From positions 84,199-133,151 of the forward strand of contig PMUI01000111.1 of assembly GCA_003166955.1 (NCBI GenBank): a stretch of DNA of 48,953 nucleotides, given 5' to 3'. This document shows, in pieces, positions 4,971 through 30,295 of the stretch. The notes beneath the pieces were generated by a model. That model was not told where the DNA came from. It searched no databases and was given only the letters and a program-made list of their open reading frames with translations. The position numbers and the translations under genes were made by a program. This DNA is from Acidobacterium sp. GTDB lineage: Bacteria; Acidobacteriota; Terriglobia; Terriglobales; Acidobacteriaceae. How positions within the stretch are numbered: position 1 is the first letter of the stretch; each line of letters starts with the position of its first letter.

Positions 4971-6842
4971 TTAGCGGTGGTGGCTGCCGCCGCCACCGTG
5001 ACTGCTGGAGTGGCCGCCTCCTCCACTGAAGTGCCCACCACCGCCACCGCCGAAGCTGCGGCCTCCGCTACCACCGAAGCTGTGGCCTCCTCCGCCAAAG
5101 CCTCCGCCGCTGAAGTGGGGCGTGCTCGGGGTGCGGCCTTCGCCGTTGAAGGAGTTGGAGTGCTGAGAGCCGGAGTTGAAGCTGCGGTTATCGAATGCGG
5201 AGGAACCGCCGTAGGCACGATAGGTGGGCGCGGAGCGGAAGTTCGATTGTGGTTGGCGGAAGGCGTTGCCGTAGCTGAGTCCGCCGGGGGCTGAGGGGCG
5301 GGGATAGTTCTGGGCTGGGCTGCCGTAGTTCTGGAAGTTTTGCGGTGGGCGGTTGTTGAAGCCGGAGCCGTAGTTGGCGTTGGGCCGACCGTAGGCACCG
5401 TAGCTTCCGGAGCCGGGGCGCGCGTTGAAGGCGGGCATGCGGTTGAAGGACTGCTGCTGCGGGGCTCGACCGTTGTTGTTGGCGTAGCCGGGGCGATTCG
5501 CGAATCCGTTGCGGGGATCGTTGAAGCCTCGGTTTTCTCCGTAGGCACGATTCTCGAGGCCGCGATTCTGGCCGAAGCTGCGATTCGCGTAGCCACGCTG
5601 TCCATAGCCGCGGTTGGTATAGGCGCCGCGGTCATAGCCGCGATTCAGTCCCCGATCATAGGCGCGGGCGTAGGCGAAGGAGCGGTTCCAGCCATAGCGG
5701 GGGCCGCCGTTGCGGAGTCCCCAGTCGCGGAGGCCGGGGCCTTGGGGGAAGTAGCCTTCGTGGTTGAAGAAGAGGCAGTTGCCGAACCAGCTGAGTCCCC
5801 AGCCGAAGAATCCCCAGGGCAGGCCGGTGAAGGCGGAGATGACGAGGCCGGGGCCGAAGCGGACGCCGTAGTAGCCGAGCCCGTCGAAGAGGGCGAATCC
5901 GGGCCAGGGGGCGATGGGGGATCCGTAGACGACCCACGGATCGTAGGCGGGGACGTAGACGACTTGAGGATTGGCGGGAGCGATGTCGATGTAGCCCTGG
6001 TCGTTGGTGACGGCTTCCTGAGGAGTGGACTGGAGGTTGCCGGCGGCCTGGGCGCGCTGGCGCATGGCCTGGATGGCGTTGAAGACATCCTGCGGCTGGT
6101 TGTAGTAAGCGTTGCCGAGTTCGGTGGTCCAGGAGAGGTTCTGGTCGAGTTCAGAAAGGACCTGGGGGAAGGCGGTGAGGGCTTTCACGCTGGGGTCCCA
6201 GGGCTGGGCGTTGGCTCCGGCGGCGATGTCCTGAGGCGAGGCGTAGCCCATGGACTGGCGCCAGCGATCGGCGGAGGCGATTTGCTCAGGGAAGGTGGAG
6301 GCCGCGAGGATCTGGGCGATGAGGGAGTCCGGGTAGAGCGCGATGGGGGCGATCAGCTGGTCGATCTGATCGGGAGCGAGGGCCGGCTGCGTTTGCTGCG
6401 GCGGGGCCGGGGGCTGGTTGTAGGACTGGTCGGGGTAGCCGGGCTGCTGCTGGGGGTATTGATCCTGGGGGTAGGGCTGCTGGTACTGGGGCGGCGCCTG
6501 CTGCTGGTATTGAGGCGGCTGCTGTTGATACTGGGGCGGCTGCACGTATTGCTGGTCGGGCGGCTGCTGGGGATAGGAACTCGGCGGCGCCTGCTGCTGG
6601 TACTGCTGGTTTGGCGCCTGCTGTGGGTAGTCGGGGGGTGGGGGAGGGTAATCCTGTTGTGGCTGCTGGTCGGTCTGCGGCGGCGGGTAGCTTTGCGGGG
6701 CCTGGGCGAAGAGGTCGAGTTGGGCGCAGGGGAGCAGGAGGACGACGAGGCCGAGGGCGATAGCGCGGCGCGGGAGGCTGGCGGAGTTGGGGCTGGATTG
6801 CCGGGGATTGCGTGGGAAGGAGAAAAACGCCCGAGTGATCAT
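4971..6842 (-). CDS. Exported DUF3300 protein with Pro/Gln-rich and Gly/Ser/His-rich ends
   Basis: Function unknown. The 623-residue product starts at ATG 6842, chosen because GAGGAAG sits a few bases upstream; the frame is open further (to 7052) without a ribosome site. Order: signal-type segment (ALGLVVLLLPCAQLDLFAQA, about residues 28-47), a Pro/Gln/Tyr-rich linker (about 50-155), then the DUF3300 core beginning LAPDQIDQLIAPIALYPDSL and including DVFNAIQAMRQRAQAAGNLQ and VVYVPAYDPWVVYG. After it comes an Asn/Arg/Tyr/Gly-rich stretch with NRGYG-type repeats. The C-terminus is a Gly/Ser/His tail ending in Ser-His-His-Arg. Such proteins are common, secreted and uncharacterised in acidobacteria and proteobacteria. 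Two inverted repeats lie in its leader. Confidence 0.88.
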   Translation of the reverse strand: MITRAFFSFPRNPRQSSPNSASLPRRAIALGLVVLLLPCAQLDLFAQAPQSYPPPQTDQQPQQDYPPPPPDYPQQAPNQQYQQQAPPSSYPQQPPDQQYVQPPQYQQQPPQYQQQAPPQYQQPYPQDQYPQQQPGYPDQSYNQPPAPPQQTQPALAPDQIDQLIAPIALYPDSLIAQILAASTFPEQIASADRWRQSMGYASPQDIAAGANAQPWDPSVKALTAFPQVLSELDQNLSWTTELGNAYYNQPQDVFNAIQAMRQRAQAAGNLQSTPQEAVTNDQGYIDIAPANPQVVYVPAYDPWVVYGSPIAPWPGFALFDGLGYYGVRFGPGLVISAFTGLPWGFFGWGLSWFGNCLFFNHEGYFPQGPGLRDWGLRNGGPRYGWNRSFAYARAYDRGLNRGYDRGAYTNRGYGQRGYANRSFGQNRGLENRAYGENRGFNDPRNGFANRPGYANNNGRAPQQQSFNRMPAFNARPGSGSYGAYGRPNANYGSGFNNRPPQNFQNYGSPAQNYPRPSAPGGLSYGNAFRQPQSNFRSAPTYRAYGGSSAFDNRSFNSGSQHSNSFNGEGRTPSTPHFSGGGFGGGGHSFGGSGGRSFGGGGGGHFSGGGGHSSSHGGGGSHHR

Positions 6843-13710: not shown

Positions 13711-13745
13711 AGCGTTCAGCAGATAGCGGACAGCGGCCAGGAAAC
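13711..13745 (+). repeat. Heptad array agcgttc/agcggac
   Basis: Units agcgttc, agcagat, agcggac, agcggcc, aggaaac. A looser agggtgc/agggtac array lies just to the left (13679-13706). Confidence 0.65.
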
Positions 13746-14383: not shown

Positions 14384-14775
14384 ATGCGATCGATTCTCCC
14401 TAAGACCTTTCTGGCGTCGGCAATCGCGGCGACAGCAGCACTGGCAACGAGCAACGCGTTGGCCGAGACGATGGTCAACGTACTCTTCAACTTCACTGTG
14501 AACTGCAAGGTTTGCCCAGCCGGGCGATACAGCCTGGACCGGAACGAAATCAGCGGTGTTGTGACGCTGAGAAACGATGACTGGAAGGTCGGCTTCTCCT
14601 GGGTTGCGTCGCCGGGCGCGCCGGCCCGACGGACGGCCGCGTGATTCTGCGGTTCGACCAGGACGGGCAGCAGTACACACTACAGTCGGTGCAGTATCGG
14701 AGCCTGATCACGCAGCGGCTGGACGGGCGGAAGCAGAACGAGGAACGGCCGACGCGGGTGTTGGTGGGCCAGTAG
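14384..14775 (+). pseudogene. Small secreted protein, frame broken by one missing base
   Basis: Looks like one of the small exported proteins common in acidobacteria, with a signal peptide and a beta-rich body; function unknown. The ATG at 14384 follows AGGAGGACC. The signal segment is LPKTFLASAIAATAALATSN, then VNVLFNFTVNCKVCPAGRYS, a pattern typical of the group. The frame stops at 14644 after ASPGAP, but the -1 frame continues immediately with TDGRVILRFDQDGQQYTLQS and RSLITQRLDGRKQNEERPTR to a TAG at 14773-14775, giving a plausible full product of about 130 residues. A one-base deletion around 14612-14630 explains this. Either the gene is broken or the assembly is wrong there. A strong terminator follows. 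Confidence 0.7.
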
Positions 14776-14837
14776 CAGACCAAAAGCCCTCCCCCTCGAG
14801 TTTCGTACCGGGCTCTCTGGAATCGCGCAGCAGCGAG

Positions 14838-14876
14838 GTCGCATCGCGGAAGCGGTGCGACTTTCTTTCTATTTTG
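14838..14876 (+). terminator. Rho-independent terminator after the small secreted protein gene
   Basis: GTCGCATCGC and GCGGTGCGAC form a 10-bp stem (one T-G pair) with a GGAA tetraloop, followed by the T-rich CTTTCTTTCTATTTT. It lies 62 bp past the TAG. Confidence 0.85.
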
Positions 14877-14899
14877 TAGGAAGGCGGCGAGGCGGGGGA

Positions 14900-14928
14900 T
14901 TGACAGAAGGGGCGCGGTGGTTTACTTT
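14900..14928 (+). promoter_or_regulatory. Promoter of the membrane protein/regulator operon
   Basis: TTGACA at 14900-14905, 17-bp spacer, TACTTT at 14923-14928. The -10 overlaps the palindromic operator that begins at 14924, so a bound repressor would block it. Confidence 0.65.
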
Positions 14929-14940
14929 GCAATGCAAAGT
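14924..14940. promoter_or_regulatory. 17-bp palindromic operator, copy 1 (perfect)
   Basis: ACTTTGCAATGCAAAGT is a perfect palindrome around a central A and overlaps the -10 element. It is the best of four copies in this locus (others at 15959, 15994, 16060). Confidence 0.8.
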
Positions 14941-14951
14941 GAAGGGCGGCG

Positions 14952-15566
14952 ATGAACGACCTGAATAAAGCGCTGGGCGAGATCAGCAGTATCCGCAGGC
15001 AGGTGGCGCGGACGACGGAGTTCCGCGGGTACGGGCCGGCAACGCTGGCGACCACGGGGGTGTTTGCATTTGTGGCGGCGTGGGTGCAGGCGCGGTGGGC
15101 GCCGGATGCGGCGCACCATATTAACGCTTACCTGGGCATCTGGATTTCGACGGCGGTGGTGGCGGTGGGGCTGACCGGAGTGCAGGTCTATCGGCGGACG
15201 CGGCGGGTGCACTCGGGCATGTCGGACGAGATGATCCGGATGGCGGTGGAGCAGTTTTTGCCGTCAGTGGCGGCGGGGTTGCTGATCACGTTCGTGGTGG
15301 TGCGGTCGGTGCCGGGGACGGCGTGGATCGTGCCAGGAATGTGGCAGGTGATTTTCGGCCTGGGAGTTTTTTCGTCGTGCCGGTTTTTGCCGCGGCCGAT
15401 GGTGGCGGCGGGGATTTGGTATCTGCTGACGGGTTTGATTTCGATTTCGTTTGGCGATGGGCGGGCGTTTTCTCCGTGGGCGATGGGGATTGCTTTTGGA
15501 GTGGGGCAGATGATCGTGGCGGGAATTTTGCTGTGGCCGGCGCGGAAAGGGGAACATGAAAGCTAA
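14952..15566 (+). CDS. Multi-pass membrane protein co-transcribed with a winged-helix regulator
   Basis: Function unknown. The 204-residue product has about five hydrophobic segments, among them PATLATTGVFAFVAAW, YLGIWISTAVVAVGLTGVQV, SVAAGLLITFVVVRSV, IVPGMWQVIFGLGVFSSCRF and MAAGIAFG-like MGIAFGVGQMIVAGILLWPA. The N-terminus is soluble (MNDLNKALGEISSIRRQVAR). The last 11 bases overlap the start of the regulator gene, so the two are translationally coupled. A palindromic operator sits in its promoter. Pairs of a small membrane protein and a regulator of this type occur in several phyla; the membrane protein may sense a signal or modulate the regulator, but that is inference. Confidence 0.8.
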   Translation: MNDLNKALGEISSIRRQVARTTEFRGYGPATLATTGVFAFVAAWVQARWAPDAAHHINAYLGIWISTAVVAVGLTGVQVYRRTRRVHSGMSDEMIRMAVEQFLPSVAAGLLITFVVVRSVPGTAWIVPGMWQVIFGLGVFSSCRFLPRPMVAAGIWYLLTGLISISFGDGRAFSPWAMGIAFGVGQMIVAGILLWPARKGEHES

Positions 15567-15942
15567 AGGGCGCGGCAGTGAGGGACGGTTTGCGTACGAG
15601 GGGCTGGACCGGGTGATTCACGAGCGGGCGCGGCTGAGCGTGCTGACGTCGCTGGTGACGAATCCGAAGGGGCTGACGTTTGGGGATCTGAAGCAGCTGT
15701 GCGCGCTGACGGATGGAAACCTGAGCCGGCATTTGCGGGTGCTGGAGCGAGGGAAGATGGTGGAGATTGTGAAGGGGCACGACAAGAACCGGCCGCAGAC
15801 GGTGGCGAGGATCACGGCGTACGGGCGGAAGCGGTACCTGGAATATCTGGGAACGCTGGAGCAGGTGGTGCGGGATGCGGCGACGGGGACGCAGGAGTTG
15901 CCGGCGGCGCTGATGCGGGGGCTGCGGCCTTCGCGGGCGTAG
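15556..15942 (+). CDS. Winged-helix transcriptional regulator (HTH_34-like), probable owner of the 17-bp operator
   Basis: DNA-binding regulator of 128 residues, MarR/ArsR-like fold. The sequence LDRVIHERARLSVLTSLVTN starts the winged helix; LTFGDLKQLCALTDGNLSRH carries the recognition helix (TDGNLSRHLRVLE), followed by the wing (MVEIVKGHDKNRPQTVARIT) and AYGRKRYLEYLGTLEQV, a helical dimerisation tail. No metal or ligand site is obvious. Its gene overlaps the preceding membrane protein gene by 11 bp, and operator copies flank the operon on both sides, which strongly suggests autoregulation and control of the next operon. The 3' end forms a terminator hairpin that includes the stop codon. Confidence 0.85.
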   Translation: MKAKGRGSEGRFAYEGLDRVIHERARLSVLTSLVTNPKGLTFGDLKQLCALTDGNLSRHLRVLERGKMVEIVKGHDKNRPQTVARITAYGRKRYLEYLGTLEQVVRDAATGTQELPAALMRGLRPSRA

Positions 15943-15949
15943 TTTTTTT
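15921..15949 (+). terminator. Terminator overlapping the regulator stop codon
   Basis: GCTGCGGCC (15921-15929) pairs with GGGCGTAGT (15935-15943) with one mismatch and two wobble pairs, around loop TTCGC, and seven Ts follow at 15943-15949. The TAG is in the 3' arm. It would separate the regulator unit from the prenyltransferase unit. Confidence 0.6.
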
Positions 15950-15958
15950 GATGCTGTA

Positions 15959-15975
15959 ACTTTGCATTACAAAGT
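15959..15975. promoter_or_regulatory. 17-bp palindromic operator, copy 2
   Basis: ACTTTGCATTACAAAGT, one mismatch from perfect symmetry. It ends 3 bp before the TTGACA at 15979. Confidence 0.75.
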
Positions 15976-15978
15976 GGA

Positions 15979-16007
15979 TTGACACGGGCGATGACTTTGC
16001 GTTGCAA
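15979..16007 (+). promoter_or_regulatory. Probable promoter of the prenyltransferase/radical SAM operon
   Basis: TTGACA at 15979-15984 in the same GGATTGACA context as the first promoter's GATTGACA. The -10 at 17 bp (TTGCAA, 16002-16007) is weak and lies inside operator copy 3. Two operators bracket the -35. Confidence 0.5.
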
Positions 16008-16010
16008 AGT
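15994..16010. promoter_or_regulatory. 17-bp palindromic operator, copy 3
   Basis: ACTTTGCGTTGCAAAGT, one mismatch from perfect symmetry, 35 bp centre-to-centre from copy 2. It covers the presumed -10 region. Confidence 0.75.
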
Positions 16011-16031
16011 TGGGTGGGACGGAGGATCGGG

Positions 16032-16970
16032 ATGCAGAGTGGGATGAGTGCGGGCGGGAACTTTGCGTTGCAAAGTGAGGGACGGGACGGGCCGCATGTG
16101 GCCATCATCATGGATGGGAATGGGAGGTGGGCGGCGCGGCGGGGATTGCCGCGGGTGGCGGGGCATCACGCGGGCGTAGCGGCGGTGCGGCGGGTGGTGG
16201 AGCGGGCGCCGGAGCTGGGGATCGGGACGCTGACGGTCTACGCGTTTTCTTCGGACAACTGGCGGCGGCCGGCATTCGAGGTGCGGAGTGTTCTCGCGCT
16301 GATCGCAGCGTATCTGCGGCTGGAGCGGGATGCGCTGCGCGAGGCGGGGGTGCGGCTGGAGGCGATTGGGAGACGGGATCGGCTGCCGCGGATGCTGCTG
16401 CGGGAGATTGCCCAGTGCGAGGCGGCTACGGCGGGGGGCACGCGGCTGCATTTGCGGGTTGCTGTGGACTATTCGTCGCGAGATGCGATTGCGCGGGCCG
16501 CGGCTCGGGCGGCGCGTGGACTGCATGGGTCAGGCACGCCCGAGTTGGTTGAGCGGGCGATGGCGGAGACGCTGCGCGAGGAGGGCGGCGATGTGGATTT
16601 GCTGATCCGCACGGGCGGCGAGAAGCGGCTGTCGGATTTTTTGCTGTGGGAGTCGGCCTATGCGGAACTGGTGTTCACCGATGTGATGTGGCCGGACTTT
16701 GGGGCGGCGGATCTGGAGGCGGCGGTCGAGGAGTTTCGTGGGCGGGAGCGGAGGTTTGGAGGCGTGCCGGTGTGCGAGCGGATAGCGGATAGCGGACAGC
16801 GTTCAGGAAATGCGCAGGTCGGCACTACCACTTCAGCACAGAGAGCACAGAGTTCACGGAGAGAGACAGGTTGGGTTGATCCGGTCGAGAAGGCTATCGG
16901 CGTGATCGAGCCCACTCAAGCCAAAGGAGGGCTTGAATGGGGCACCGTGGACATTGGGGGTGGGCGATGA
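16032..16970 (+). CDS. cis-Prenyltransferase (UppS family) with a repeat-derived C-terminal extension
   Basis: Chain-elongating Z-isoprenyl diphosphate synthase, condensing isopentenyl diphosphate onto an allylic primer. Signature HVAIIMDGNGRWA holds the catalytic Asp and the phosphate loop; also present are TVYAFSSDNWRRP, the RVAVDYSSRDAI region and the C-terminal DLLIRTGGEKRLSDFLLWES. The core ends at ERRFGGV, the usual end of the family, near residue 247. About 65 further residues are encoded by repeat DNA: a heptad array (IADSGQRSG), a CACAGAG-type repeat and a palindromic element. The ATG at 16032 follows GGAGG; operator copy 4 lies inside the early codons (NFALQS). The stop overlaps the next start as ATGA. 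This may be a second, specialised enzyme rather than the housekeeping UppS. Confidence 0.85.
   Translation: MQSGMSAGGNFALQSEGRDGPHVAIIMDGNGRWAARRGLPRVAGHHAGVAAVRRVVERAPELGIGTLTVYAFSSDNWRRPAFEVRSVLALIAAYLRLERDALREAGVRLEAIGRRDRLPRMLLREIAQCEAATAGGTRLHLRVAVDYSSRDAIARAAARAARGLHGSGTPELVERAMAETLREEGGDVDLLIRTGGEKRLSDFLLWESAYAELVFTDVMWPDFGAADLEAAVEEFRGRERRFGGVPVCERIADSGQRSGNAQVGTTTSAQRAQSSRRETGWVDPVEKAIGVIEPTQAKGGLEWGTVDIGGGR
16060..16076. promoter_or_regulatory. 17-bp palindromic operator, copy 4, inside coding sequence
   Basis: ACTTTGCGTTGCAAAGT, identical to copy 3, located about 10 codons into the prenyltransferase gene. It could act as a roadblock or a looping site. Confidence 0.7.
16777..16806 (+). 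repeat. Heptad array translated at the prenyltransferase C-terminus
   Basis: agcggat, agcggat, agcggac, agcgttc, ag. Read in frame as IADSGQRS. Confidence 0.75.
16911..16946 (+). repeat. Palindromic element, copy 7, with a different stem
   Basis: CCCACTCAAGCC, AAAGGA, GGGCTTGAATGGGGCACC. The flanks match the family but the stem is TCAAGCC/GGGCTTGA instead of the usual CTCGCGC/GCGCGA, and still pairs. It is inside the prenyltransferase reading frame. Confidence 0.65.
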
Positions 16971-18451
16971 TTGCGCCGGGGACGAAACCGCTGAAGGTGA
17001 AGTTCATTTTGCCGGCGCTGACGGAGGCGACCGATCCTTACTGGCGGCCGATTAAGTATTCGCTCTTCCCTCCCCTGGGGCTCGCTACGCTGGCGGCGTA
17101 TTTGTCTGCCGACGATGAGGCGACGATCGTCGATGAGCATGTGGAGCGGCTGACGCTGGATGATGCGCCGGAGCTGGTGGTGATCCAGGTGTACATCACG
17201 AATGCTTATCGGGCGTATCGGATTGCAGATCGTTACCGGAAGCGCGGGGCGTTTGTTTGTTTGGGCGGACTGCACGTTACGTCGTTGCCGGAAGAAGCGG
17301 CGGTGCATGCGGACGCGATTTTTCTGGGGCCGGGAGAGCAGACATTTCCTCAGTTCCTCGAGGATTTTCGCGCTGGCCAGCCGGGGCGGGTTTACACGTC
17401 GCTGTTGGGGCGGACGCTGGAGCGGGTTCCACCGATACGGCGGGATTTGATTCAGCGGCGACGGTATCTGGTGCCGAATTCGATTGTGGTGACGCGCGGG
17501 TGTCCGCAGCACTGCGACTTTTGTTATAAGGATGCGTTTTTCGAGGGCGGACGCGGGTTCTACACGCAGCGTGTGGACGATGCGCTCAAGGAGATTGAGC
17601 GGCTGCCGGGGCGGCATTTGTATTTTCTCGACGATCATTTGCTGGGGGATCGGCGGTTTGCGGAGGCGCTGTTTGCGGGGATGAAAGGGATGGGGCGCGT
17701 ATTCCAGGGCGCGGCGACGGTGGATTCGATTCTGCGCGGCGACTTGATCGAGCGCGCTGCGGGCGCGGGAATGCGGAGTATCTTTGTTGGTTTTGAGACG
17801 CTGACGGAGGGGAATCTGCGGCAGAGCAACAAGCGGCAGAATCTGGGGCGCGATTATCGGGCGGTGGCCGATCGGCTGCATGGGTTGGGAATCATGATCA
17901 ACGGCAGCTTTGTGTTTGGCATGGACGAGGATGGGGAGGATGTTTTTCGGCGGACGGTGGACTGGGCGATGGAGCGCGGGATTACAACGGCGACATTTCA
18001 TATCCAGACGCCGTATCCTGGGACGCGGCTGTATGTGCGGATGATGCATGAGGGGCGGACGGTGACGCGGAACTGGGATCTGTTTGACACGCGGCATGTG
18101 GTGTACGAGCCGGCGCGGCTGACGGCGGAGGCGCTGAAGACGGGCTACGACTGGGCGTACAAGGAGTTTTACCGGTGGGGTTCGATTGCGCGGGCGTCGC
18201 TCAATTATGGGACGGTGAAGCATCAGGCGAAGCACTTTTTTTATGCGGCGGGGTGGAAGAAGTTTGAGGGGCTTTGGGATTTGGTGATTCGGGCGCGGCA
18301 GCTGAACTGGATGACTCCGGTGCTGGAGGCGGTGCTGGCGCGGGTGACTGAACAGCGGATAGCGGATAGCGTACAGCGGACAGCGGATAGAAAAGCAGGG
18401 GCCGAGACGTCCGCGGAGTTGTTGCCGGTGTTGGGGCAGGAGCGGGGATGA
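16967..18451 (+). CDS. B12-binding-domain radical SAM enzyme (class B-like)
   Basis: Predicted cobalamin-dependent radical SAM enzyme. The N-terminal half resembles a B12-binding Rossmann domain: FPPLGLATLAAYLSADDEAT, ELVVIQVYITNAYRAYRIAD and FVCLGGLHVTSLPEEAAVHA. The radical SAM domain has Cys179-x3-Cys183-x2-Cys186 in RGCPQHCDFCYKD, then YFLDDHLLGD and FVGFETLTEGNLRQSNKRQN. The C-terminal part (GWAYKEFYRWGSIARA-like) resembles the extension of hopanoid and bacteriochlorophyll enzymes of this class, but the substrate is not assignable. Length 494 residues. ATG 16967 overlaps the prenyltransferase stop as ATGA; an ATG at 16937 is repeat-derived. The C-terminus QRIADSVQRTADRKAG is translated heptad repeat. 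The neighbouring prenyltransferase suggests an isoprenoid or lipid substrate; this is inference. Confidence 0.87.
   Translation: MIAPGTKPLKVKFILPALTEATDPYWRPIKYSLFPPLGLATLAAYLSADDEATIVDEHVERLTLDDAPELVVIQVYITNAYRAYRIADRYRKRGAFVCLGGLHVTSLPEEAAVHADAIFLGPGEQTFPQFLEDFRAGQPGRVYTSLLGRTLERVPPIRRDLIQRRRYLVPNSIVVTRGCPQHCDFCYKDAFFEGGRGFYTQRVDDALKEIERLPGRHLYFLDDHLLGDRRFAEALFAGMKGMGRVFQGAATVDSILRGDLIERAAGAGMRSIFVGFETLTEGNLRQSNKRQNLGRDYRAVADRLHGLGIMINGSFVFGMDEDGEDVFRRTVDWAMERGITTATFHIQTPYPGTRLYVRMMHEGRTVTRNWDLFDTRHVVYEPARLTAEALKTGYDWAYKEFYRWGSIARASLNYGTVKHQAKHFFYAAGWKKFEGLWDLVIRARQLNWMTPVLEAVLARVTEQRIADSVQRTADRKAGAETSAELLPVLGQERG
18354..18395 (+). repeat. Heptad array translated at the radical SAM C-terminus
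   Basis: agcggat, agcggat, agcgtac, agcggac, agcggat, agaaaag: six exact 7-bp units, in frame with the gene. Confidence 0.75.
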
Positions 18452-19011
18452 AGCAGCGGATGGCGGATAGCGGACAGCGTTCAGAAGCGCAAGAACTGCG
18501 GGCGGTGCGGGTTTGGCTGGCGGTGTTCATGGTGGGACTGGTGGTGAGCGGGTTGACGGCGTTTCCGCTGCGGACGGAGGTGCGGTGGCTGGATGCGGTG
18601 GTTCACTCGCATGCGGTGCGGCCGGTTGCGGAGCGGGTGCGGCTGGTGGCGTGGGTCGATCGCGTGGATGAGGCTCTCGAGCAGATGGGCGCGCAGTATC
18701 CGTTTCTGCAGTACGGGACTGACTGGCTGGCGTTCGCGCATTTGGCGATTGCGGTGGCGTTCATCGGGCCGTGGCGGGATCCGGTGCGGAACCGTTGGGT
18801 GATCACGTTTGGGTTGATTGCGTGCGCGGGGGTGGTGCCGCTGGCGCTGATTGCAGGCGCGGTGCGGGGGATTCCCATGGCGTGGCGGCTGGTGGATTGC
18901 AGCTTTGGCGTGTTTGGCTGTGTGCCGCTGCTGATGGCGCGGCGGCATGTGCAGTGGATGGAGTCAGCGGGCAGCGGGGAGCAGCTGGTCTCCGCTCGTC
19001 AGAGGAAATAA
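18448..19011 (+). CDS. Small multi-pass membrane protein of the prenyltransferase/radical SAM operon
   Basis: Function unknown; 187 residues. It begins with repeat-encoded MKQRMADSGQRSEAQELRAV, then hydrophobic segments VWLAVFMVGLVVSGLTAFPL, WLAFAHLAIAVAFIGPW, WVITFGLIACAGVVPLALIA and LVDCSFGVFGCVPLLMA, giving four predicted helices. A conserved-looking polar loop lies between helices 1 and 2 (HSHAVRPVAERVRLVAWVDR). ATG 18448 overlaps the radical SAM stop (ATGA), so translation is coupled and the three genes probably act together. Possible roles are membrane anchoring of the pathway or handling of a lipid product; nothing in the sequence decides this. Confidence 0.8.
   Translation: MKQRMADSGQRSEAQELRAVRVWLAVFMVGLVVSGLTAFPLRTEVRWLDAVVHSHAVRPVAERVRLVAWVDRVDEALEQMGAQYPFLQYGTDWLAFAHLAIAVAFIGPWRDPVRNRWVITFGLIACAGVVPLALIAGAVRGIPMAWRLVDCSFGVFGCVPLLMARRHVQWMESAGSGEQLVSARQRK
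18455..18489 (+). repeat. Heptad array translated at the N-terminus of the membrane protein
   Basis: agcggat, ggcggat, agcggac, agcgttc, agaagcg, starting a few bases after the ATG. Encodes RMADSGQRS. Confidence 0.75.
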
Positions 19012-29879: not shown

Positions 29880-30269
29880 ATGCCAAGCGGATCGAGTTTT
29901 ATGCGATGGGACGCGCCGGCACCGGTACGGCGCGATGACGCGACAGGGAGCCAGGGTGCGCCGCGGCGTGGGACGGCGAGCGATGCGGAGATCGTGCTGC
30001 CGGGACGGGGTCTGCAGTATCCGGGACAGATTGCGGAGCTAAGTGTGGCCGGGTGCGTGATCGAGACGAAGTGCAAGCTGGAAGCGGGGACCGCGGTTGA
30101 GGTGTGGATGCGGACCGAAGGGATGCCGTTGCGGCTGGCGGCGCGTTTGGGGGAGCGGGGGGTACAGTTTGAGTTTCAGCCGATGCCGCTGCGGAAGCAG
30201 GAGCAGCTGGAGGTTCTGAAGATGGAGCTGGAAAGAGACGGGCAGCCGGGAACGGGGACCAACGTATAG
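29880..30269 (+). CDS. PilZ-like domain protein
   Basis: Short protein (129 residues) with a probable PilZ beta-barrel, the c-di-GMP receptor fold: GQIAELSVAGCVIETKCKLE corresponds to the (D/N)xSxxG strand, followed by GTAVEVWMRTEGMPLRLAAR and GVQFEFQPMP. The upstream RxxxR motif needed for tight c-di-GMP binding is not clearly present, so it may not bind the nucleotide. ATG 29880 has GAGG only two bases upstream, and an ATG at 29901 is an alternative. A much longer frame to the left is antisense to the peptidase gene and is rejected. The stop codon touches a heptad array. It is divergent from the isoaspartyl peptidase gene. Confidence 0.65.
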   Translation: MPSGSSFMRWDAPAPVRRDDATGSQGAPRRGTASDAEIVLPGRGLQYPGQIAELSVAGCVIETKCKLEAGTAVEVWMRTEGMPLRLAARLGERGVQFEFQPMPLRKQEQLEVLKMELERDGQPGTGTNV

Positions 30270-30295
30270 CGTTGAGCGGACAGCGGACAGCGGAT
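30268..30295 (+). repeat. Heptad array agcgttg/agcggac after the PilZ-like gene
   Basis: agcgttg, agcggac, agcggac, agcggat; its first base is the A of the PilZ-like stop codon TAG. Confidence 0.75.

Follow-up and report, generated by a model that had tools for sequence, protein, structure and literature searches.

Can one short palindrome place both a regulator's own operon and the gene that follows it under the control of that regulator? This question is raised by a locus in a 48,953-nucleotide stretch of Acidobacterium sp. DNA (GenBank assembly GCA_003166955.1, contig PMUI01000111.1, positions 84,199 to 133,151 of the forward strand; the whole stretch is called the window here), in which a membrane-protein gene (mem), an HTH_34 winged-helix regulator gene (reg) and a cis-prenyltransferase gene (uppS) are accompanied by four copies of a 17-bp palindrome. 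This one palindrome appears to be the means by which the small DNA-binding protein, which is paired with the membrane protein, controls its own operon and envelope genes. Sequence comparison shows what the operator is and where it lies, which regulator it goes with and at which genes it is found; binding, repression, a single transcript, a roadblock, a signal and a sensor role are inferred.

The palindrome in the window and its genome

The sites and the genes that they accompany are, in window positions:

14900 to 14905, plus strand: -35-like TTGACA of the membrane protein/regulator operon, read directly in the sequence
14924 to 14940, no strand: operator A, ACTTTGCAATGCAAAGT, which lies across the -10 region and ends 11 bp short of the ATG
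14952 to 15566, plus strand: mem, membrane protein of 204 amino acids with six helices, without a Pfam or NCBIfam match
15556 to 15942, plus strand: reg, HTH_34 (PF13601) winged-helix regulator of 128 amino acids, overlapping mem by 11 bp
15959 to 15975, no strand: operator B1, ACTTTGCATTACAAAGT, 16 nt past the regulator gene
15994 to 16010, no strand: operator ACTTTGCGTTGCAAAGT, part of a 26-nt repeat, its central TTG at 16002 in the uppS frame
16032 to 16970, plus strand: uppS paralogue with a putative start codon, a cis-prenyltransferase of the PRK14839 type (Prenyltransf, PF01255)
16060 to 16076, no strand: operator ACTTTGCGTTGCAAAGT within the first uppS codons, its central TTG at 16068 in frame

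The initial annotation had reported palindromes at 14924, 15959, 15994 and 16060, and these positions proved exact. In that order, the copies differ from the 14924 copy at 0, 2, 2 and 2 positions on the plus strand and at 0, 1, 1 and 1 positions on the better strand. With up to three mismatches allowed, the window holds eight matches (the four sites on both strands) compared with 0.03 expected by chance. The palindrome is not scattered through the genome: the arms ACTTTGN5CAAAGT without mismatch have four copies in 5.4 Mb, all at the window locus. Chance or a dispersed repeat as the source of the sites was ruled out, since the exact arms are confined to this locus and the controls are near zero at 0 to 1 mismatches. 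At up to two mismatches there was no genome-wide enrichment (57 matches vs 90 for the reversed control), and such looser matches are therefore uninformative alone. The degenerate motif ACTTTRYNNNRYAAAGT has five copies in the window genome (control, 0), of which the fifth lies at C121:61606 with a poorer copy abutting it. The sites at 15994 and 16060 each lie in a copy of the 26-nt repeat, at a distance of 66 bp, and the 15959 site lies in a 69% copy; this suggests a lineage-specific duplication.

The tie between the palindrome and the regulator

The regulator passes the gathering cutoff of HTH_34 (63.6 vs 27 bits) and that of HTH_20 (PF12840; 29.8 vs 27 bits), the latter being the weaker match over the same helix, and falls below the cutoffs of MarR_2 (PF12802; 23.6 vs 27 bits) and the ArsR/SmtB metalloregulators (NF033788; 25.3 vs 55 bits). 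Its predicted fold is MarR/PadR-like. The best match in sequence and fold is PH1061 (PDB 1ub9), which has the same HTH_34 domain, and MepR-DNA complexes are also among the fold matches. Among the open-access abstracts inspected on the motif, HTH_34, CreD, uppS regulation and roadblocks, none gave an operator or targets for the HTH_34 family or described this motif and regulator as a system, although further records and subscription journals could hold such a description.

Regulator matches were found in 29 of the 41 genomes common to the regulator search and the motif scan, including the window's own; four same-genus orthologues share 77-88% identity. The motif was present in 19 of 24 genomes with a regulator match at E <= 1.1e-13 and in 3 of 17 without (p = 1.3e-4), a limit that was set post hoc after the list had been inspected. 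When all hits to E 1e-3 were counted, the figures were 20 of 29 and 2 of 12 (p = 0.005). A set of 61 genomes held 60 copies of the degenerate motif (control, 3). For 16 genomes picked by hand out of the 80 loci described below, 26 exact copies of the degenerate motif were counted in 15 genomes (control, 2), and 20 of the 26 lie in the regulator locus by coordinate comparison. Three of the six outside it belong to a second Edaphobacter cassette (mem 65%, reg 76%), and one lies at a CreD homologue of Rhizomicrobium. The only exact operator of the Singulisphaera genome (L200, 1501-1517) was observed away from the regulator locus.

The loci L014 to L043 (L014 is the window) carried the motif at up to one mismatch in 22 of 30 cases within the 2.2-3.4 kb examined. 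Where the recognition helix reads LGxQ instead of LSxH (L038, L040 and L041), 0, 1 and 0 sites were found at this threshold; L042, which keeps LSVH, and L039 had no motif at up to one mismatch in the examined stretch. Row set A1 comprised 24 of 30 loci (five were left out for an internal TAG and one for TGA codons in the matched stretch), A2 comprised 10 rows, and A3 comprised 41, namely P0001 and 40 of 77 homologues. The palindrome accompanies regulator homologues down to about 36-45% identity, and across phyla. Together with the co-occurrence in the 41 genomes, this supports the winged-helix gene as the best owner of the palindrome, as the initial annotation had proposed for the protein at 15556-15942.

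An operator over the putative promoter of the regulator operon

The loci of relatives are the best 80 of at least 575 confirmed relatives from a scan of named genomes. As recorded, they come from three phyla: Acidobacteriota are among them, as are Methylobacterium and Bradyrhizobium in large numbers together with further Alphaproteobacteria; Planctomycetota contribute three, and Gammaproteobacteria five metagenome-assembled genomes (MAGs) or MAG contigs. Since contig ends cut the others, the operator test covers 76 loci for operator A and 79 for the downstream operator, with 740 kb of other DNA at those loci as background. In a separate search of plasmids, five records matched, from Aureimonas and four Streptomyces.

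ACTTTRYNNNRYAAAGT was found upstream of the mem gene at up to one mismatch in 71 of 76 loci, compared with 3 matches in the background, and this bears out the expected presence of the palindrome next to regulator homologues in related genomes. Reversed and altered control motifs gave no match in the 80-locus test. The downstream operator was found at the same threshold in 54 of 79 loci, and both operators in 50.

In 70 of 76 loci, operator A is preceded by a -35-like TTG at a distance of 23-27 bp, while windows of the same five-base width lying more than 5 bases off hold TTG in at most 24 of the 76. Because of this spacing, operator A is placed over the -10 region and would thus lie over the regulator's own promoter; the hexamer across its 5' edge is most often TATACT (17/76). 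In the window itself (14700-16200), a consensus promoter scan lists no promoter and the -10 hexamer is poor, so that the role of the first site is argued from the geometry conserved in relatives and not from the window hexamer. The earlier placement of this copy on the -10 holds as to location. Repressors commonly act at such a place, and the proposed autorepression of the mem-reg operon is well supported by the position of the operator over the -10 region.

MarR-family local repressors such as MepR have a short palindrome at their own promoter beside a membrane-protein gene. The window locus is similar in its winged helix and in its short palindrome at the operon's own promoter next to a membrane-protein gene. 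Unlike that family, the window regulator falls below the MarR_2 cutoff, its partner matches no known family, and an internal operator sits on a start codon.

The downstream operator at the start of uppS

In the 80 loci, uppS comes directly after the regulator in 55 and further on in 4, and is not within the examined DNA in 21. Forty-five of the 55 have a site with up to two mismatches that opens in frame into the MDGN motif of uppS; together they give 47 sites. The codon at their centre is ATG in 40, GTG in 3, TTG in 1, ATA in 2 and CTG in 1; the dyad centre is thus ATG, GTG or TTG in 44 of 47. Shine-Dalgarno (SD)-like bases stand beside 40 of the 47. The distance from site centre to MDGN ranges from 42 to 108 nt, and 50 of 51 rows are in frame (up to two mismatches). 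For uppS of the Aureimonas plasmid, the RefSeq start (5415 of L146) is the centre of a one-mismatch site at 5407. Two relatives (G005 and G006) have two sites 36 bp apart at the uppS start, the first GTG-centred and the second ATG-centred, read in frame, and the window site at 15959 would be the positional counterpart of the first of these. In the window, ATG 16032, with GGAGG upstream, is likely the uppS start codon. If translation begins there, the last copy lies inside the first codons of the gene, as had been stated; the initial annotation did not include the start-codon position as such, nor creD and other remote targets.

In four Acidobacteriaceae loci (L067, L069, L071 and L075), a gene of the creD cluster follows the regulator, no uppS occurs in the examined DNA, and the site pair is kept 34-36 bp apart. 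Since the pair remains in loci of this kind, a DNA site rather than a peptide seems to be kept downstream of the regulator. Internal operators would mark the start of the next gene and not a promoter. As a side observation, the ATG-centred operator just past the regulator in L067, L069 and L075 opens a tiny frame (MQS..., 8-24 amino acids), which resembles a remnant of a uppS start.

Other genes at the operator

At 14 loci, the gene after the regulator comes from a cluster of 15 open reading frames, one tested member of which (L074) is CreD. Single tested next genes encode LytB/IspH (L117), DUF4153 (L091), PAP2 (L111) and a glycosyltransferase (L104), and a subtilase gene follows the regulator in L138, a locus without the operators. 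The CreD (PF06123) gathering cutoff is passed by genes at the operator in L074, L182, L183, L186 and L192. CreD-family genes with a site were found in four relatives (G012, G018, G050 and G059); in G012 and G018, the regulator match is on a different contig from the CreD site. In Rhizomicrobium (L201), a site stands just upstream of a CreD homologue detected by tblastn only (34.9% identity over 441 amino acids). The window genome gave no match to CreD.

Among 20 further motif places, the eight with a readable gene are a small membrane protein (L181), CreD (L182, L183, L186 and L192), membrane-protein cassettes (L184 and L195) and uppS (L189). The last of these (genome G017) has the operator just before uppS, followed by a CTP_transf_1 (cdsA-type) gene. 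In the window genome, the site at C121:61606 precedes a small membrane protein of 126 amino acids without a Pfam match; the L181 protein (genome G005) is similar to it, and there too the site is present. On a contig of G025 other than that with the regulator match, three exact operators were observed within 420 bp (L176, 1464-1882).

Two known arrangements resemble these loci. The first is CreBC-CreD, in that the operator also occurs at creD; deletion of CreD in Stenotrophomonas damages envelope integrity, as reported in PMC4689548. Unlike that system, creD here follows an HTH_34 regulator or carries the palindrome of such a regulator. The second is the uppS-cdsA operon, which G017 resembles in its gene order behind the operator, with the difference that the window uppS is one of two copies and of the PRK14839 type, and that the G017 site is out of the uppS frame. 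Judging from the gene names, the common theme of the targets may be the envelope and undecaprenyl lipids.

The membrane partner

A mem homologue with a start codon lies upstream of the regulator in 77 of 80 loci. The predicted helices of mem span residues 2-21, 29-49, 57-86, 89-119, 121-141, 150-166 and 175-203 (predicted local distance difference test, pLDDT, 85); the first is read as non-membrane and the other six as membrane-spanning. No PDB fold match was found at E <= 0.001, nor any Pfam or NCBIfam family. Because the pairing is conserved and the two genes overlap, one may speculate that mem senses an envelope signal or sequesters the regulator.

Proposed mechanism

We consider it rather probable that the HTH_34 protein binds the palindrome, represses its own operon, obstructs transcription of target genes at the internal operators and thereby serves an envelope regulon. 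The protein would bind ACTTTRYNNNRYAAAGT, presumably as a dimer, and at operator A would cover the -10 region and repress the mem-reg promoter. The downstream genes for uppS, the B12 radical SAM protein and a small protein would be read mainly from this promoter. Internal operators extend across the beginning of the first target gene and often across its ribosome-binding site and start codon; regulator bound there would stop the elongating polymerase, adding a second level of repression for that gene. In other genomes, the same operator may recruit genes at remote positions, namely creD, a further uppS or the gene of a small membrane protein, and the regulon therefore looks like one for envelope maintenance and undecaprenyl-lipid supply. 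The six-helix partner probably senses an envelope signal or holds the regulator. In our reading, the whole is an envelope regulon not described before, whose membrane partner matches no PDB fold.

A wider reading is possible and is offered tentatively, namely that the six-helix sensor and HTH_34 repressor form a cassette that runs an undescribed envelope response in Acidobacteriota, Alphaproteobacteria, Planctomycetota and some Gammaproteobacteria, and that captures envelope genes through an operator sited at their start. The captured genes would be uppS, in which the initiation codon forms the centre of the dyad, creD, and possibly genes for ispH, PAP2, DUF4153 and glycosyltransferases. If so, the cassette would be a promoter-independent, portable repression module. 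A common but little-described regulator family gains a defined operator, a membrane partner and consistent likely targets, which serve the maintenance of the envelope and of undecaprenyl lipids. It becomes possible to test the control of uppS, and hence of one step of wall-lipid supply, in genera that have cultured members (Edaphobacter, Granulicella and Methylobacterium), and an operator conserved on a start codon is an unusual geometry that can be checked.

Alternative explanations

Two further features bear on how the downstream genes are transcribed:

15943 to 15949, plus strand: T-tract directly after the regulator stop codon
15979 to 15984, plus strand: second TTGACA, not conserved and probably not a promoter

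In the model of the initial annotation, the regulator unit stops at a terminator, and transcription of uppS and the radical SAM gene starts from a second promoter that contains TTGACA 15979 and has operators of its own. The TTGACA is indeed present between the second and third sites, as had been noted, and in the window a weak stem precedes the T-tract (-18.1 kcal/mol, z -1.4), so that a terminator in the window alone may exist. A promoter role for this TTGACA is not supported: the consensus scan found no acceptable -10 at a fitting distance, and an exact TTGACA within 90 nt after the regulator occurs in 0 of 80 loci and in 0 of 4 close same-genus relatives. A run of at least five T within 70 nt after the regulator occurs in 39 of 81 cases (the 80 loci and the window; 0 of 81 for the control inside the gene), but the 35 nt before the T-tract fold no better than shuffles (mean z -0.09 over the 39 cases). 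The hairpin is thus not conserved, and a conserved intrinsic terminator separating the units was not found. The stretch 14700-16200 (1.5 kb) holds 8 terminator-like sites compared with 1.3 expected, with one weak stem at 15922-15936. Two separately promoted units are accordingly judged distinctly unlikely, and a single transcription unit with internal operators is preferred because neither the TTGACA nor the hairpin is conserved; from the initial annotation, ownership of the palindrome and control of the regulator's own operon are what carry over. It is unlikely, too, that the internal sites act by looping to operator A as auxiliary operators, in place of a roadblock. The auxiliary operators of lac are the comparison for such looping, and the same operator does recur 1026-1188 bp apart in 52 loci. 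When all spacings were used, the Rayleigh p was about 3e-4 at a period of 10.0 and about 0.008 at 10.5; with unique spacings (n = 38), it was 0.08 and 0.30, respectively, and a period of 11.0 yielded nothing. The spacing between the two operators thus has no firm helical phase, and the locking of the site to the reading frame in uppS loci also speaks against looping.

A palindrome that contains a start codon, and often SD-like bases, could also act as an mRNA hairpin that controls translation. We regard this as extremely unlikely. Of 74 downstream sites, 26 have A-C at positions 6 and 12, and 25 have it at positions 1 and 17, a combination that does not pair in RNA; an RNA hairpin at the start codon was rejected because such combinations are common, and the same motif also stands at the promoter. 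Activation of some targets in place of repression is very unlikely. It would fit two diverged relatives (L184 and L195), in which the operator ends 2 bp before TTGACA, whereas in the main set the distance from TTG to operator A places the operator over the -10 region.

Apart from that arrangement in L184 and L195 and the stem before the window T-tract, several observations weigh against the proposed mechanism. Operator A is absent from L138, and L104, L117, L120 and L128 have only a two-mismatch version in the tested stretch. Ten of the 55 loci with uppS directly downstream have no internal operator at up to two mismatches, so that this operator is dispensable. The G017 site lies outside the frame and start-codon register of uppS. 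Twelve of the 20 further motif places have no readable target (L176-L180, L185, L187, L188, L190, L191, L193 and L194), five of them in G025, a genome with eight sites. The counts themselves are not independent events and are inflated, because many of the 80 loci are closely related (Methylobacterium and Bradyrhizobium).

Neighbouring genes and minor observations

The remaining genes of the locus are as follows:

16967 to 18451, plus strand: B12-binding radical SAM protein (P0004); ATG 16967 overlaps the uppS stop, start inferred
18448 to 19011, plus strand: protein of 187 amino acids, probably membrane-bound, without a family match

All five genes are on the plus strand, and mem/reg, uppS/radical SAM and radical SAM/187-amino-acid genes overlap by a few bases. 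The window uppS, one of two UppS genes in the genome, passes the PRK14839 NCBIfam cutoff (357.9 vs 334 bits). The radical SAM protein is below the NCBIfam cutoffs of HpnR (82.3 vs 650 bits), HpnJ (74.5 vs 577.6) and BchE (52.7 vs 481.35). A B12 radical SAM protein encoded after uppS in Bradyrhizobium (L129, 6269-7792) passes the BchE cutoff with 538.8 bits. Cluster relatives of the 187-amino-acid protein come after creD or uppS in relatives.

Upstream, at 14384-14644, a short frame resembling a secreted protein has an early stop codon (86 amino acids vs 132 in the relative L066). The window copy may be broken, since the cluster member in L066 is longer.

Short repeats of the type GCGGATAGCGGACAGCG gave 11 matches in the window at up to three mismatches, compared with 0.48 expected. 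They were found at 16778-16801, 18355-18385, 18456-18479, 13719-13735 and 30269-30292. Several lie inside genes, in the 3'-terminal parts of uppS and of the radical SAM gene and at the beginning of the 187-amino-acid gene, and there form odd protein tails or heads.

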